In this document: piece after piece, positions 43,803-51,024 of the stretch | How the letters are laid out: each line of letters starts with the position of its first letter | How positions within the stretch are numbered: position 1 is the stretch's first letter | Assembly (NCBI GenBank): GCA_020349945.1 | Contig: CP070704.1 | Location: 1,532,058 to 1,583,650, forward strand | DNA length: 51,593 nt | Reading direction: 5' to 3' | Source of the DNA: Deltaproteobacteria bacterium | GTDB lineage: Bacteria > Desulfobacterota > DSM-4660 > Desulfatiglandales > B25-G16 | The notes under the pieces: model-generated | Seen by the model: only the letters and a program-made list of their open reading frames with translations | Database searches by the model: none | Told to the model about the DNA's origin: nothing | Position numbers and translations under genes: made by a program

Positions 43803-44621
43803 TCAGAGCAGCCGAGACAGTTTGTCTATATGTCCTCTCTCCTGTTCAGCCAGACTCCGGAAAACATCCCTCAAAGGCGGCTGCACGGTTTCTGCCATTC
43901 TCTGATAGAGGTCGTAGGCCTTGCATTCCTTCTCCAAGGCCAGCTCCAGGACGTCAATCCTTTCCTTGGGTGGCTGTTCTTCAATGGCCAAAAGACTCTG
44001 AGGAAAGGAGATGGCCCCTTCCATAAACTCCGATTCCTTGATTCCACCCAAAGGTGGGGCTTGCGCCCAGACCTTTTTCAAGCCCCTGTAAAGGACCTCC
44101 ATGTGTCTTCCTTCCATCTGGGATAGCTTCTTCAATAGGTCTACTATATGCTTTTCCTTCAACGTTTCAGCAGCCTGATGGTAAAAGGTTCGGCTTGCCC
44201 TCTCCATTTTTAGGGCAAAAAGGAGAAGATCCTTGATTTCCTTTGTTTCTTTGAAAAACGCCTCTGCCTCCTTCGGATGGCCCCTTACCGTCTCATGGGG
44301 CCAGCTCATGATCCCTCCGCGCATGCTATAGACTTCTTGGAATGCCTGATTACAAAGAAGAATAGCTGCCCCCATGCTTCTCCTTCCCGATCGGCAATAC
44401 GTAATAATCTTCCTTTCTCTGTCAAGCTCTGAACATCTTCTATCAAGCTCATTTAAGGGGATAAGCCTGGCTCCGGGAAGATGTTCCTCTTCATATTCTG
44501 CCTGAGTTCTCACATCCACCAGGAGATATTCTTCCTTTTTGTCTCCTCGGATGATATTCCAAACCTCCTCTGGGCCAATGTCCCTTACTGTATCTGTCGA
44601 ACAGGTAAATACCCTAGCCAT
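43803..44621 (-). CDS. Rhodanese-ferritin-like fusion protein
   Basis: A 272-residue protein. Residues about 12-110 are a rhodanese with active loop CRSGRRS. Residues about 120-272 are a ferritin-like diiron domain (KMERASRTFYHQAAE, QMEGRHMEVLYR, LEKECKAYDLYQRMAE, EQERGHIDKL). The fusion suggests sulfur transfer coupled with peroxide or iron chemistry. I placed the start at 44621, 8 bp from GGAGG; ATG 44627 would be too close. It lies 150 bp upstream of the persulfide dioxygenase-like gene on the same strand. Confidence 0.9.
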   Translation of the reverse strand: MARVFTCSTDTVRDIGPEEVWNIIRGDKKEEYLLVDVRTQAEYEEEHLPGARLIPLNELDRRCSELDRERKIITYCRSGRRSMGAAILLCNQAFQEVYSMRGGIMSWPHETVRGHPKEAEAFFKETKEIKDLLLFALKMERASRTFYHQAAETLKEKHIVDLLKKLSQMEGRHMEVLYRGLKKVWAQAPPLGGIKESEFMEGAISFPQSLLAIEEQPPKERIDVLELALEKECKAYDLYQRMAETVQPPLRDVFRSLAEQERGHIDKLSRLL

Positions 44622-45226
44622 ATCCATCGCCTCCTTTATTGAGAAAGGCAGACCGTCTTTACGCTCTTACCTTGTAAATGCCTGCCGAGCGCTAACTTAA
44701 AAGATAGTGTGTTATTACGAAATCCCTGATAATTCCGCCCTTCTATCCTTCTGACAGCTCAAAATACGTCTGCGTGTTATTCATCACTAATTCTTTATAA
44801 TAGCAGAAATAGACCACAAAATTTATGGAAAACCACCCTTTATTGCCTTTGATGAGTTAATCTTTCAAGGTTATTCACAATTCAGTCTGGAGTATTGGTA
44901 ACGGTGAATCTTCCCCCTATATCGAATGAATATCTTAATCTCAGAACTCCATCAAGCCTTTATGGAATGCAAATCCATTTAGCCAAGCGAGTTTATAGTT
45001 TCAGATAATCTGGGCGTTTTTTTTGGGTGCTGAGTTTTCGATAAAGAGAAAAAAGTATTGCCTGCGTCTCTTTTTAATGATTTTATGGGATAATCTCGAT
45101 GTTTCAACCCAAAATTTGGGCTAAAGCATTTATATAAAAATTTTTACGATCTTGTATTATGAGAATTCACGGCAGTGAGGAAAACCATTTCTAGGAAAAT
45201 AGCCATATAAAAAATGGGGCCACAAG
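44622..45226. other. AT-rich divergent intergenic region
   Basis: About 600 bp without a supported gene. Notable points are a CAGAT-A-ATCTG palindrome at 45002-45012 followed by a T8 tract, and CCCAAAATTTGGG at 45108-45120. Promoters in both directions are expected but no consensus is clear. Confidence 0.5.
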
Positions 45227-45817
45227 ATGTTTAAAATTCTTGCTATTTATGGCAGCCCCCGCAAAGAGGGAAATACATCCTTGCTACTCAAGAAGGCTAC
45301 TCAGGGGGCAATTGAAGCAGGCGCTGAGGTGGATGAGGTAGTTCTTCGTGATTTAAAGATATCTCCATGCCTTGAAATTTATGGCTGTAAAGAGACAGGT
45401 CGGTGCGTGATACAGGATGATTTTCAGAAAGTTTATGACCAGATTTTATCATGCAATGGTGTAATGCTGGCCTCTCCTGTGTTTTTTTATTCGGTAAGTG
45501 CGCATACCAAAATCCTTATGGATCGGTGTCAATCCCTGTGGGCCAAGAAATACTGGGTAGAAAAGACCCCCATTGGGAACCATAAGGCCAAACGCAGGGG
45601 ACTTTTTATTTCTGCGGGAGCTACCAAGGGAAAGAGACTCTTTGACGGGACCATTCTCAGCATTCGGTATTTTTTTGATGCCCTTGATGTGGAACTCTGG
45701 CGGTCCCTTCTATATCGCGGGTTAGATTTTGAGGGGGATGTATTAAAGCATTCGGAATTTCTAGAAGAGGCTTATCAGGCAGGAAAAGAATTGGTTTACT
45801 TTCAAGAAAATATTTGA
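45227..45817 (+). CDS. NADPH-dependent FMN reductase/flavodoxin-fold protein
   Basis: A 196-residue iron-sulfur-flavoprotein-like protein. The FMN loop is IYGSPRKEGNTSLLL, and ASPVFFYSVSAHTKILMDR is the second flavin contact. Two or three cysteines (ISPCLEIYGCKETGRCV) sit where related proteins have a cluster-binding motif, but spacing differs. It may reduce quinones, metals or protein partners with NAD(P)H or ferredoxin. The ATG at 45227 has a weak ribosome site. Confidence 0.9.
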   Translation: MFKILAIYGSPRKEGNTSLLLKKATQGAIEAGAEVDEVVLRDLKISPCLEIYGCKETGRCVIQDDFQKVYDQILSCNGVMLASPVFFYSVSAHTKILMDRCQSLWAKKYWVEKTPIGNHKAKRRGLFISAGATKGKRLFDGTILSIRYFFDALDVELWRSLLYRGLDFEGDVLKHSEFLEEAYQAGKELVYFQENI

Positions 45818-45964
45818 GAACCCTAGGATTGTGAGATTTGTGATCATTATTGCCAGTAATTCGCCTATGAAGATTACTTTGCTGCGATAAACCGCAATTA
45901 CTCAAAAATCCGTCATTTTCTTCTCATCTTTTAAGATAGAATAGGATAAATTAGGAGGTAGAGA

Positions 45965-46474
45965 ATGGATGAATTGAAGGGAAGCAAGACAGAGGAAAAC
46001 CTGTTGTTCGCCTTTGCGGGTGAATCGCAGGCCAACCGCAGGTACCTCGCCTTTGCGAAACAGGCTGAGAAAGATGGCTATCCTCAGGTTGCGAAACTTT
46101 TCAGGGCAGCCGCCGAGGCAGAAACTGTCCATGCCCATGCACATCTTCGCGCCCTTGGGGGAGTCAAAGGTACTGCCGAAAATCTCAAAGAGGCTATTTC
46201 CGGGGAAACCCATGAATTCAAGAAGATGTACCCTCATATGATTGAGGATGCTAAGGAGGAGGGGAATAAGGCGGCAGAGCGATGCCTCACCTACGCCAAT
46301 GAGGTGGAAAAGGTCCATGCCAGCCTTTACCAGAGGGCCCTAGACAGACTGGGCACTCTAGAAGAAGCAGACTACTATGTTTGCTCTGTGTGTGGCTACA
46401 CTTGTGAGAACGAGCCACCCGAGAGATGTCCTGTATGCAGTGCCAAATCCAGCGCATTTTTTAAGGTAGAATGA
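45965..46474 (+). CDS. rbr: Rubrerythrin
   Basis: A 169-residue peroxide reductase. The ferritin-like diiron domain has GESQANRRY, AEAETVHAHAH and YANEVEKVHASLY. The C-terminal rubredoxin-like domain has C140, C143, C155 and C158 (an extra C147 lies between). It reduces H2O2 to water in the cytoplasm with electrons from rubredoxin. The ATG follows AGGAGGTAGAG. It is followed by perR, its likely regulator. Confidence 0.97.
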   Translation: MDELKGSKTEENLLFAFAGESQANRRYLAFAKQAEKDGYPQVAKLFRAAAEAETVHAHAHLRALGGVKGTAENLKEAISGETHEFKKMYPHMIEDAKEEGNKAAERCLTYANEVEKVHASLYQRALDRLGTLEEADYYVCSVCGYTCENEPPERCPVCSAKSSAFFKVE

Positions 46475-46577
46475 AAGAGACGCCGCTTTGAGGCCTTGGT
46501 ATAATAAGAAGGCTTGAAAGGTCAGGGCAATGGGGTTACTTCCTTTTCAAGAATGCTATGGTGACCTAAAGGACTAA

Positions 46578-46606
46578 TTGACAGGTTAGAAACAAGTTGT
46601 TACTTG
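46578..46606 (+). promoter_or_regulatory. perR promoter with overlapping dyad
   Basis: TTGACA at 46578-46583 and a weak TACTTG at 46601-46606 with 17-bp spacing. CAAGT-TGTT-ACTTG (46593-46606) is a dyad overlapping the -10 region, so autoregulation by PerR or another dimer is plausible. Confidence 0.5.
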
Positions 46607-46637
46607 TAATAACATCGGTAACCATTCTCAATAAGCC

Positions 46638-47075
46638 ATGCCCTCAGAAGATATTTTTGGGTCCGACAGAAAGTACAGGATGACCCATCAGCGCCAGCTT
46701 ATTCTAGAGGAAATCCGACGGGTCAATACTCATCCTACGGCGGATGAGCTCTATGAAATGGTACGTAAAAGACTGCCCCGGATAAGCATGGGTACGGTAT
46801 ACCGTAACCTGGAGGTTCTATCCACATCAGGTGTGATACAAAAAATTGGACGTGAGTCCAGCCAAATGCGGTTTGATGGCAATACAAAAAACCATTATCA
46901 TATCCGCTGTACTCATTGCGGCAAGGTGGAAGACGCTCCGATCGAATCAGCGGAAAACCTCGGGCATGGCATTCGTGATGCAAGCGATTATACTATAATA
47001 GGGCACAGACTTGAGTTTATCGGGATATGTCCAGTATGCAGGAAAAAAGGGGATCTTTCTCACAAGAAAGCTTAG
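46638..47075 (+). CDS. perR: PerR-type Fur-family peroxide sensor
   Basis: A 145-residue repressor. An N-terminal winged helix is followed by the dimer domain. The Fe/Mn site residues known from Bacillus PerR all align with an offset of five: H32, D80, H86, H88 and D99. Structural zinc is held by C91, C94, C131 and C134. Peroxide oxidises a histidine ligand and releases DNA. The neighbours rubrerythrin, rubredoxin and ferritin-like genes are typical targets. The start is ATG 46638 with a weak ribosome site. Confidence 0.93.
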   Translation: MPSEDIFGSDRKYRMTHQRQLILEEIRRVNTHPTADELYEMVRKRLPRISMGTVYRNLEVLSTSGVIQKIGRESSQMRFDGNTKNHYHIRCTHCGKVEDAPIESAENLGHGIRDASDYTIIGHRLEFIGICPVCRKKGDLSHKKA

Positions 47076-47114
47076 GACCTCTTCCTTACCCTCTCTTGAT
47101 ACACCCGTCTGTGA

Positions 47115-47270
47115 GGTGTTTTGATAGAAGAACTGCGCCTGCTGGCAAGGGGCGTGTTCGTGGTGGATCGAGGGGGAAGGATCCAAGATATTCAGTTGGT
47201 TAGGGAGTTGACAGAGGAGCCTCAGCCCCTGCTTGTGGCCAACGATTACAGATTTTTGGGATATGTTTAA
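47115..47270 (+). pseudogene. C-terminal remnant of thiol peroxidase (Tpx)
   Basis: The frame reads GVLIEELRLLARGVFVVDR then IQDIQLVRELTEEP, the end of 2-Cys thiol peroxidases, and stops at TAA 47268. TGA at 47112 and loss of everything upstream, including the catalytic cysteine, show it is broken. The last about 15 codons also diverge. It lies in the PerR-rubredoxin block, so a peroxidase gene has decayed here. Confidence 0.7.
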
Positions 47271-47304
47271 CCTATGAGTCAGATGAAATAGGGAGGAGAG
47301 AATT

Positions 47305-47466
47305 ATGGATACGTACGTCTGTCAGGTTTGTGGTTATGTCTATGATCCGGCTGTGGGAGATCCAGATAATGGAATACCAGCTGGCACCAGGTTTGAAGAT
47401 CTGCCAGATGACTGGACCTGCCCAGTCTGCGGTGCCTCAAAGGATGATTTCGAAAAAGAAGAGTAA
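47305..47466 (+). CDS. rub: Rubredoxin
   Basis: A 53-residue standard rubredoxin. The iron is bound by two CxxCG motifs ([11 protein letters not shown] and [11 protein letters not shown]), with the aromatic core Y4, Y11, Y13, F30, W37 and a conserved GIPAGT loop. It is the electron donor for rubrerythrin, superoxide reductase and flavodiiron protein, all encoded in this window. The ATG at 47305 follows GGGAGGAGAG. It begins the block to 49235. Confidence 0.97.
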
Positions 47467-47491
47467 GGGAAGATAAAGAGAGGGCGTTGAG

Positions 47492-47995
47492 GTGATTTAC
47501 GGTTTTAATGCAAACGAGGTTTTTCAAATAGCTATCGACATAGAGAAAAATGGCAGGCGGTTTTACGAAAGTGCCATGGAGTTCATTGACAGTCCTGACG
47601 TAAAGGCCCTTTTGGCCTCCCTGGCTCAAGAGGAGGTAGAACACCTGAGGAGATTTACGGAGCTGAGGGCTCAGCTGCCGAAGGTAGCTAGCGAGGATAC
47701 CATCTGGGATCCTGAACATGAGATGAACCAGTATCTCAAAATGATGGCTGATATGAACGTATTCAGATCGGATGTGGATGTGCAAGAGGAATTATCTCGT
47801 TTGAAGGGCCTTGAAGATGCGCTGAAACTCGGGATTCAGTTTGAGAAGGATTCAATAATCTTCTTTCTTTCCGTACAAGAGGCTACCGAGGAGAAAAAAG
47901 GGCGGAAATTTATCGGTCAACTGGTTGATGAGGAGAAAAAGCACTTAAGAAGGCTTTCTCTGGAGCTGAGGAAACACACGGCATGGAAGAAATAG
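47492..47995 (+). CDS. Ferritin-like diiron protein (rubrerythrin core)
   Basis: A 167-residue four-helix protein with motifs DIEKNGRRFYESAME, AQEEVEHLRRF, FEKDSIIFF and DEEKKHLRRL, giving two ExxH-type half-sites. There is no rubredoxin domain, but rubredoxin is encoded 25 bp upstream and probably donates electrons in trans. Expected activity is peroxide reduction. The start is GTG at 47492. It is followed by the flavodiiron protein on the same strand. Confidence 0.9.
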   Translation: MIYGFNANEVFQIAIDIEKNGRRFYESAMEFIDSPDVKALLASLAQEEVEHLRRFTELRAQLPKVASEDTIWDPEHEMNQYLKMMADMNVFRSDVDVQEELSRLKGLEDALKLGIQFEKDSIIFFLSVQEATEEKKGRKFIGQLVDEEKKHLRRLSLELRKHTAWKK

Positions 47996-48041
47996 CCCAA
48001 CGGCCACTGCTCATCCTATGAGAATTTGATCGGAGAATAGC

Positions 48042-49235
48042 ATGCCACCGGTTGAAATCCTGAAGGATGTTTACTGGGTCGGCGCCATTGACTGGAATAT
48101 CCGTGACTTCCACGGCTATTCTATCTACCGGGGCACAACCTATAACGCCTTTCTGGTGAGGGATGAAAAGATTACCTTGTTCGATACGGTTAAGCATGGT
48201 TTTAAAGCCGAGCTGTTACACCAAATCAGTAGGATAATTGATCCCACCGCAATCGATTACCTTGTCGTAAACCATGTAGAAATGGACCACTCCGGCCTTC
48301 TCCCCGAGGTGGTGGATCTGGTGAAACCTGAGCGGATCTTCTGTTCTGAAAAAGGGGAAAAGGGGCTAACTGCACATTTTCGCAGAGAGGACTGGCCTTA
48401 TGAGGCTGTAAAAACTGGTGACAGCATCGGCCTTGGCAGCAGGACTGTTCAGTTTATTGAGACCAGAATGCTCCACTGGCCAGACAGTATGTTTTCATAT
48501 ATTCCTGAGGATCGCCTACTCATTTCCAGTGACGCCTTTGGGCAGCACTGGGCTACTGCAGAGCGGTTTGATGATGAGGTTGATCTGTCTCTACTTTTAG
48601 GCCATGCTGCCAAGTATTATGCCAACATTCTCCTCCCCTATTCCAATCTTGTCCAGAAACTCTTGTCCAAGATCAAGGAAATGGATCTCAAGGTAGACAT
48701 GATTGCCCCTGACCACGGCGTTATATGGCGTGGGAATCCTGGGAAGATCCTTGAATGCTATGATAAATGGAGTCAGCAGAGGGGCAGGCTCAAGGCGCTC
48801 GTTATCTATGATACCATGTGGCATAGCACTGAAATGATGGCAAAGGCCATTGTGGACGGACTGGTTCAAGAGGGTGTCAATGTTCAGCTCTTTGATCTCG
48901 CCACCAATCATCGGAGCGATATCATAGCGGAGGTTCTCGATGCAGGCGCACTTGTAATTGGTTCTTCAACCCTTAACAATGGAATGCTTCCACGGATGGC
49001 CGACCTCCTTCATTATATGAAGGGGTTGCGGCCTGCCAACAAGATTGGGGCAGCGTTCGGTTCATATGGATGGAGTGGGGAGGCAGTGAAGTTGATCAAG
49101 GCCATCATGGAAGAGATGGGATTCAGGGTCATCGATCCCGGGATCAGTGTCCAGTATGTGCCCGCACATGATGACCTGCAAAATTGCGTGGAGCTGGGTC
49201 GCAAGGTGGCTAAGGCAGTAAAGAAAGGAGGATAA
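48042..49235 (+). CDS. fprA: Flavodiiron protein (rubredoxin:O2/NO reductase)
   Basis: A 397-residue class-A flavodiiron protein. The beta-lactamase-like diiron domain has the ligand motif NHVEMDHSG, then MLHWPDSM and SSDAFGQH. The flavodoxin domain (about 255-395) binds FMN (YDTMWHSTEMM, SSTLNNGMLP). It reduces O2 to water or NO to N2O in the cytoplasm using rubredoxin. Its presence in the rubredoxin block and near HAO-like and hybrid-cluster-like genes fits combined oxygen and nitrosative defence. The start is ATG 48042. Confidence 0.97.
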   Translation: MPPVEILKDVYWVGAIDWNIRDFHGYSIYRGTTYNAFLVRDEKITLFDTVKHGFKAELLHQISRIIDPTAIDYLVVNHVEMDHSGLLPEVVDLVKPERIFCSEKGEKGLTAHFRREDWPYEAVKTGDSIGLGSRTVQFIETRMLHWPDSMFSYIPEDRLLISSDAFGQHWATAERFDDEVDLSLLLGHAAKYYANILLPYSNLVQKLLSKIKEMDLKVDMIAPDHGVIWRGNPGKILECYDKWSQQRGRLKALVIYDTMWHSTEMMAKAIVDGLVQEGVNVQLFDLATNHRSDIIAEVLDAGALVIGSSTLNNGMLPRMADLLHYMKGLRPANKIGAAFGSYGWSGEAVKLIKAIMEEMGFRVIDPGISVQYVPAHDDLQNCVELGRKVAKAVKKGG

Positions 49236-49378: not shown

Positions 49379-50368
49379 ATGGATTTTCCTAGTTTTTCTC
49401 TGGATACTTCATTCTTAGAGAAGGCAAGCGGTCCGGAGCCGGGAGTTACCTATGATCTCCTCATCTTGGGCGGAGGACCGGCGGCCATGAGCGCGGCGGT
49501 TTATGCTGCCCGAAAGATGATGAACGTCGCTATTATCGCCAAGGACTTCGGAGGTCAGGTGCGAGAAACCTCGGAAGTCGAAAACTGGCTTGGGTTTCAG
49601 AGCATAAATGCCAAGGATCTCGCTGACAGTTTTGAGGAGCATGTGAGAAGTTTTGATATACCCGTCAGCCTAGGTAGAGCTATTACTCAGGTCAAGAAAG
49701 AGGCAGACACCTTTAAAATCTGGACAGATGATAGTAGCATTTTTTCAGGCCGCACCATGATCCTGGCAACTGGCAAACGCCACCGCCCTCTCAATGTTCC
49801 CGGAGAAAAGGAGTTGTTGGGGAGAGGGGTGGCGTACTGCGCCACCTGCGATGCACCGCTCTTCAAGGGGAAAAAGGTGGTAGTGGCCGGCGGCGGTAGT
49901 TCGGCCTTTACGACGGCTGTGGACCTGTTGAAGGTGGGGGCACAGGTGACCCTTGTGAACTTCGTGAAAGGCTGGCAAGCGGATGCAGCTCTTCAAGAAA
50001 GAGTGAAGCAGACTGACGGGGTGAGCTTACTCGATTACCACCAGGTTGTCAGGATCGAGGGCAAGGACAGGGTAGCTGGTGTTGTTGTGAAGAACCGGCA
50101 GAATGAAAAGCAATCGAGGCTGGATGCAGACGGTGTCTTCGTGGAGATTGGGCTTTTACCCAACAGCGAGCCGGTCAAAGGCCTCGTTGAGCTGAACGAG
50201 CAAGGCGAGGTGATCGTGGATTGCTCCTGCCGGACCAGTGTTGAAGGCCTCTTCGGTGCCGGTGACGTTACCACCGTCCCGCACAAGCAGATCGTAATTG
50301 CCGCTGGCGAGGGGGCAAAGGCCGCATTATCCGCATATAACTACCTTATCAACAAATCTTTACTTTAG
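49379..50368 (+). CDS. trxB: Thioredoxin-reductase-like flavoprotein
   Basis: A 329-residue FAD/NAD(P) oxidoreductase. The FAD loop is GGGPAA (31-36), the redox disulfide is C154-C157 (CATCDAPL), a second nucleotide site is GGGSSA (about 171-176), and GLFGAGDVT is near the end. It reduces a thioredoxin-fold partner. The gene immediately downstream (11 bp) encodes that probable partner, the selenocysteine disulfide oxidoreductase, so the two form an NAD(P)H-driven thiol-reducing pair. About 20 extra N-terminal residues precede the FAD motif. Confidence 0.95.
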   Translation: MDFPSFSLDTSFLEKASGPEPGVTYDLLILGGGPAAMSAAVYAARKMMNVAIIAKDFGGQVRETSEVENWLGFQSINAKDLADSFEEHVRSFDIPVSLGRAITQVKKEADTFKIWTDDSSIFSGRTMILATGKRHRPLNVPGEKELLGRGVAYCATCDAPLFKGKKVVVAGGGSSAFTTAVDLLKVGAQVTLVNFVKGWQADAALQERVKQTDGVSLLDYHQVVRIEGKDRVAGVVVKNRQNEKQSRLDADGVFVEIGLLPNSEPVKGLVELNEQGEVIVDCSCRTSVEGLFGAGDVTTVPHKQIVIAAGEGAKAALSAYNYLINKSLL

Positions 50369-50379
50369 AGAGGCGTGTA

Positions 50380-51024
50380 ATGGGAGTGCTGAAAGAAAAG
50401 GACAGGCAAAAACTAATAGGTGTCTTCAAGGATATTCAGAAGGATGTAAGGATGGTTATGTTCACCCAGGAGACAGAGTGCCAGCACTGTGAGATGACCA
50501 GGATGATGCTTGAGGAAGTCTCTGGCCTTTCAGACAAGCTCTCTCTTGAGGTGCACGACTTTGCAGCTGAGGCTGATCTGGCCAAGAAGTACGGGGTTGA
50601 CAAGATTCCGGCCATTGTTCTGTTAGGTGATAGGGACTATGGCATACGGTTTTACGGAGTCCCCGCGGGTTATGAATTTAATGTCCTGATACAGGACATT
50701 ATGGATGTGGGGAAAAGGAATCCTGGATTGAGCAAGGAGGTAATGACTGAACTGGCCAAGGTAGATCAGCCTGTGCACATGCAGGTCTTGATCTCTCCTA
50801 CCTGACCCTATTGTCCAAGTGCGGTTCGCACTGCCCACAGATTCGCCATGGCCAGCGACCATATCACCGCCGATATGGTGGAGGGCTCAGAATTCTCCTT
50901 TCTGGCGGTGAAGTACAATGTCCACGGAGTGCCCCATACCGTGATTAATGAGGAGCATAGTATAGTGGGTGCAGAGTCGGAGATGGAGTTTGCCCGTGGG
51001 GTACTCAAGGCTATCGGGAAGTAG
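50380..51024 (+). CDS. Selenocysteine-containing protein disulfide oxidoreductase (PDO/glutaredoxin-like)
   Basis: I read through the in-frame TGA at 50803-50805 to TAG at 51022, giving 214 residues, the normal size of two-thioredoxin-fold PDO proteins. The first fold has C34-x-x-C37 (ECQHCEM). The second has Thr-Sec142-Pro-Tyr-Cys145, where relatives have Cys-Pro-Tyr-Cys, followed by intact PDO sequence (AVRTAHRFA, ITADMVEGSEF, YNVHGVPHTVINEE). A SECIS-like hairpin follows the TGA. It probably reduces disulfides or peroxides using the adjacent thioredoxin-reductase-like protein. Ending at TGA would give a 141-residue protein without its second active site; simple nonsense mutation is the alternative. 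Confidence 0.85.
50803..50839 (+). promoter_or_regulatory. Candidate bacterial SECIS element
   Basis: After the UGA (50803-50805), AGTGC (50818-50822) pairs with GCACT (50828-50832) around a GGTTC loop. The first loop G is at 50823, 17 bases after the UGA, within the distance used by bacterial SECIS elements, and the loop has the GGU expected for SelB. TGT (50812-50814) and ACA (50837-50839) can extend the stem. Confidence 0.7.

Follow-up and report, generated by a model that had tools for sequence, protein, structure and literature searches.

The gene at positions 50380-51024 of the window (here the whole stretch of DNA analysed, 51,593 nucleotides) almost certainly encodes a selenoprotein of the two-domain protein disulfide oxidoreductase (PDO) / AhpF-N-terminal-domain family, in which UGA codon 142 is read as selenocysteine (Sec) by SelB with the help of a SECIS hairpin, and for which the flavoprotein encoded upstream is the probable reductase. 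Sec at the second PDO site is the best reading since the TGA is conserved, relatives have Cys in its place, purifying selection persists past it, a SECIS-like hairpin follows, and selA, selB and selD are present in the genome; judged from this sequence evidence, the central claim of an earlier note on this DNA, i.e., Sec at the second active site of a two-fold PDO-like protein, is supported. The read-through frame, its conservation and selection, the hairpin, SelA/B/D and the gene pairing were computed; the actual insertion of Sec, the electron flow and the substrate are what we infer. The features concerned are:

49379-50368, forward strand: thioredoxin-reductase / AhpF-C-like flavoprotein, 329 aa, with CATC at residues 154-157; ends 11 nt upstream of the PDO gene
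50380-51024, forward strand: predicted Sec-containing protein disulfide oxidoreductase (PDO / AhpF-N homologue), 214 aa; TGA at 50803-50805 read through, stop at TAG 51022-51024
50479-50490, forward strand: first active site, C-Q-H-C, residues 34-37, from translation and homologue alignment
50803-50814, forward strand: predicted second active site, Sec-Pro-Tyr-Cys, residues 142-145, from the TGA at 50803-50805 and homologue comparison
50818-50832, forward strand: putative bacterial SECIS hairpin AGTGCG-GTT-CGCACT; loop starts 17-18 nt past the UGA with GG/GU

An ORF caller reports 50380-50805 as a 141-residue product ending at the TGA, as had been foreseen for standard gene calling. Past this codon the frame runs on for 72 further codons to the TAG, and the read-through protein of 214 residues carries SPT-U-PYC at its second site, with the putative Sec as residue 142. 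It matches the NCBIfam model TIGR02187 (PDO_seleno_TRX) over residues 6-210 with 266.2 bits against a cut-off of 185 (E 1.5e-79), and it has the two thioredoxin-like units with a redox site in each (CQHC, UPYC) that mark this family; Pfam places thioredoxin in the first half and Thioredoxin_3 in the second. The solved PDOs 1j08 (E 2e-43) and 1a8l (E 1e-42) match by sequence across the whole length, and in this alignment the first Cys of CPYC stands opposite the TGA, i.e., the gene has an in-frame UGA where homologues have Cys, as expected of a bacterial selenoprotein. The earlier note had placed the TGA exactly at this Cys, followed by 72 homologous codons, which is confirmed by TIGR02187, 1j08/1a8l and 12 homologues, and its full-length protein with the TGA restored is borne out by the translation and the span of the TIGR02187 match. 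An Rfam scan of the gene returned chance matches only, and the TGA-interrupted frames across the window, judged by eye, held no second convincing selenoprotein gene.

A scan of genome contigs yielded 15 homologous loci, one of which (L036, matched only in the last 54 residues) was omitted. The TGA occupies codon 142 in all ten loci of the same broad lineage (L022-L031; 69-90% identity) and the identical codon in two Chloroflexota loci (L034, L035), and is thus common to 12 homologues with 46-90% identity to the window protein; on sequence grounds, its retention at one codon in 12 homologues is far beyond chance. Cys is found at this position in L032 and L033, and relatives without the TGA have TGC or TGT, so that the comparison at position 142 proposed in the earlier note gives a Sec-type TGA in 12 loci and Cys in the others. 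The first-site CxxC is retained in 14/14 full-length homologues. One lineage locus, L030, has an extra in-frame stop at codon 30; this copy is broken or contains a sequence error. Between the window gene and the ten lineage loci, dN/dS is about equal before (0.05-0.13) and after the TGA (0.047-0.106). The low values past the TGA imply a second half that is translated and under selection and thereby rule out a decaying pseudogene, and the relaxed selection after position 142 in close relatives that the earlier note had named as counter-evidence is not seen (dN/dS of about 0.05-0.11).

Bacterial SECIS elements have been modelled with a loop of 3-9 nt, a stem of 4-16 bp, a G in the first two loop positions, a spacing of 16-37 nt and a minimum free energy (MFE) of at most -7.5 (PMC13188914). 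The window hairpin lies within these limits, with an MFE of -8.5 kcal/mol for the 48 nt that begin at the UGA; the bare hairpin alone gives -6.3. The region is not more stable than its shuffles (z -0.21), so the energy is ordinary for the composition and the case for a SECIS rests on conservation. A SECIS-like hairpin of 5-7 bp, with its loop starting 16-18 nt past the UGA, is present in the window, in 12/12 TGA homologues, all with a spacing of 17-18 nt, and in three fused homologues. As background, only 1.5% of the TGAs in the window have such a hairpin 16-18 nt downstream; of 25 Cys relatives, L032 alone has it as its best hairpin. Stem changes between homologues preserve pairing, e.g., from CCGCAGC/GCTGCGG to CCACAGC/GCTGTGG, and the Chloroflexota loci have another stem sequence around the same GG loop. 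The Cys homologue L032 (2667-3263), which still has a SECIS-like hairpin past the codon, possibly represents a recent Sec-to-Cys change. A PDO homologue from the same order, L093, has a TGA at the site and no hairpin that satisfies the SECIS criteria used.

The genome of the window (G000) carries selA (443.6 bits), selB (361 bits) and selD (389 bits), the last with one in-frame TGA of its own in GAGUACKIGPGDLH and a strong hairpin after it. The genome search suggested in the earlier note thus recovered all three genes; the tRNA-Sec that it also listed was not found in G000, neither with RF01852 nor with a tRNA-Sec of the same genus as query, in an assembly that is gapped and 90.7% complete. 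Likewise, none was present in the regions around selA, selB and selD, nor detected at E 1e-10 in G003, G007 and G011, all of which have the TGA gene. The best RF01852 match in G000 is a tRNA-Trp; the other loci checked are tRNA-Leu, -Ser and -Tyr (ARAGORN), and matches to an anticodon-stem pattern in G011, G003 and G000 are not tRNAs. A canonical tRNA-Sec is present in G001 and G004, which belong to the same genus as G000. Its neighbour there is a gpmA-like gene. No close match to this gene is present in G000, G003 and G011, and contig edges truncate it in G002 and G007, from which an assembly gap, and not true absence, is the most likely reason for the missing tRNA-Sec in G000. Since the G000 chromosome was scaffolded across many 100-N joins and the assembly is incomplete, the negative result is weak counter-evidence. 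One such join interrupts selA (G000:C1:922647-923546; L001, L037:7081-8592); the sequence past the gap is unlike SelA, and this join may be wrong. In G004, an integrase-like frame adjoins the tRNA-Sec gene (L053:588-1490 and 1497-1594); the tRNA gene possibly serves as an integration site, and this would partly explain assembly breaks there.

A nonsense mutation or sequencing error that truncated the gene and left its downstream half to decay would agree with TGA being a stop in table 11 and with the 141 residues of a plain ORF caller, but the identical TGA in 12 other homologous loci and the strong purifying selection past it leave this explanation with practically no credence. The failure to detect tRNA-Sec in G000 and in three further carriers of the TGA gene might instead suggest that another residue is inserted at the UGA, or that ribosomes simply read through it without selenium. 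However, this is highly improbable: selA, selB and a Sec-type selD, which serve Sec use, are present; relatives have Cys at the site; the tRNA exists in the same genus (G001, G004), and its gpmA-like neighbour lacks a close match or is cut at contig edges, as where assembly is missing. Moreover, a 644-codon frame in the window terminates at a TGA (41934), so TGA is not reassigned throughout.

Termination generally competes with Sec insertion, and the first domain retains its CxxC in all homologues of the scan; both would suit a functional 141-residue product beside the full-length selenoprotein, with the UGA as a stop regulated by selenium supply. No evidence points to a separate role of the short product, and this quite unlikely arrangement would be compatible with Sec as the best explanation.

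For the predicted selenoprotein, the upstream thioredoxin-reductase-like flavoprotein is the probable electron donor, as far as gene order and gene fusions can tell. Its gene lies directly upstream of the PDO gene in 10/10 lineage loci; L041-L043 show the same order and probably stem from the same genomes as L024, L025 and L029. It was not found next to the homologues from Chloroflexota and WOR-3 or next to L032. Most of the other TIGR02187 matches in the phylum sample sit in frames of about 550-640 aa, and L103 and L104, which were printed in full, combine a PDO part and then a reductase part in one protein. Conserved adjacency and fused homologues thereby support the proposed electron route, which the earlier note had suggested from the window alone. 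The fused genes L103, L104 and L105 (three genomes of one genus in the same phylum) encode about 550 aa, with a TGA at the same second-site codon followed by a 7-bp SECIS-like hairpin, in which a G-C pair of L103 is changed to A-U in L104 with compensation. L103 and L104 no longer have the first CxxC (REGENDPFN), and the predicted Sec belongs to the sole site of the PDO portion. Just before the reductase-PDO pair, window positions 43803-49235 hold rhodanese-like, FMN-reductase-like, rubrerythrin, Fur/PerR-type regulator, ferritin-like and flavodiiron-type genes, an apparent oxidative-stress island that fits oxidative stress in an anaerobe.

The use of Sec in this scaffold is not, as the earlier note supposed, little described. 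A 2006 survey (PMC1794560) counted a "homolog of AhpF, amino-terminal domain" among the selenoprotein families, with Carboxydothermus and Symbiobacterium as its hosts, later catalogues link this AhpF-N family to TIGR02187 with UxxC (PMC9312934, PMC13188914), it has been reported from Asgard archaea (PMC11227280), and PDO_seleno_TRX is a curated NCBIfam model. The window protein shares with this family a full-length match above the curated cut-off and the same type of UxxC motif, with no distinguishing difference found. It resembles the solved PDOs 1j08, 1a8l and 2ywm in its two thioredoxin-like units and whole-length sequence match, whereas 1j08 and 1a8l have Cys where it has the predicted Sec. 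AhpF (TIGR03140) and a fused AhpF homologue (TIGR03143) consist of the same two modules, a two-fold thioredoxin part and a TrxR-like flavoprotein; in contrast, the window pair is two separate genes, reductase first, each below the cut-offs of those families (83.4 bits for the PDO and 347.3 for the reductase against the 502.9 required of a single fused protein by TIGR03140). The gene is therefore a sound new member of an already listed selenoprotein family, not a new kind, in a lineage known from metagenome assemblies. Literature searches turned up no biochemical study of the AhpF-N / TIGR02187 selenoprotein family.

In the proposed mechanism, SelB would decode UGA codon 142 as Sec with the hairpin just downstream, creating the Sec-Pro-Tyr-Cys second site; the flavoprotein, with its CATC, would pass electrons from NAD(P)H to the PDO, whose selenolate could then reduce disulfides or peroxide-oxidised partners. 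Together they would form a split AhpF-like or TrxR-Trx-like system in an oxidative-stress gene cluster of an anaerobe. A more tentative and on balance doubtful proposal is that the pair serves this anaerobic lineage as a dedicated Se-dependent module of oxidative defence, and that Sec entered the PDO scaffold more than once, in separate and in fused forms, each with its own SECIS sequence. The gene is a clear case of one that a plain ORF caller cuts at the catalytic residue. With it, a selenoprotein family catalogued by prediction gains well-supported members across the lineage, and the conserved reductase pairing and the fused forms make the electron donor testable.
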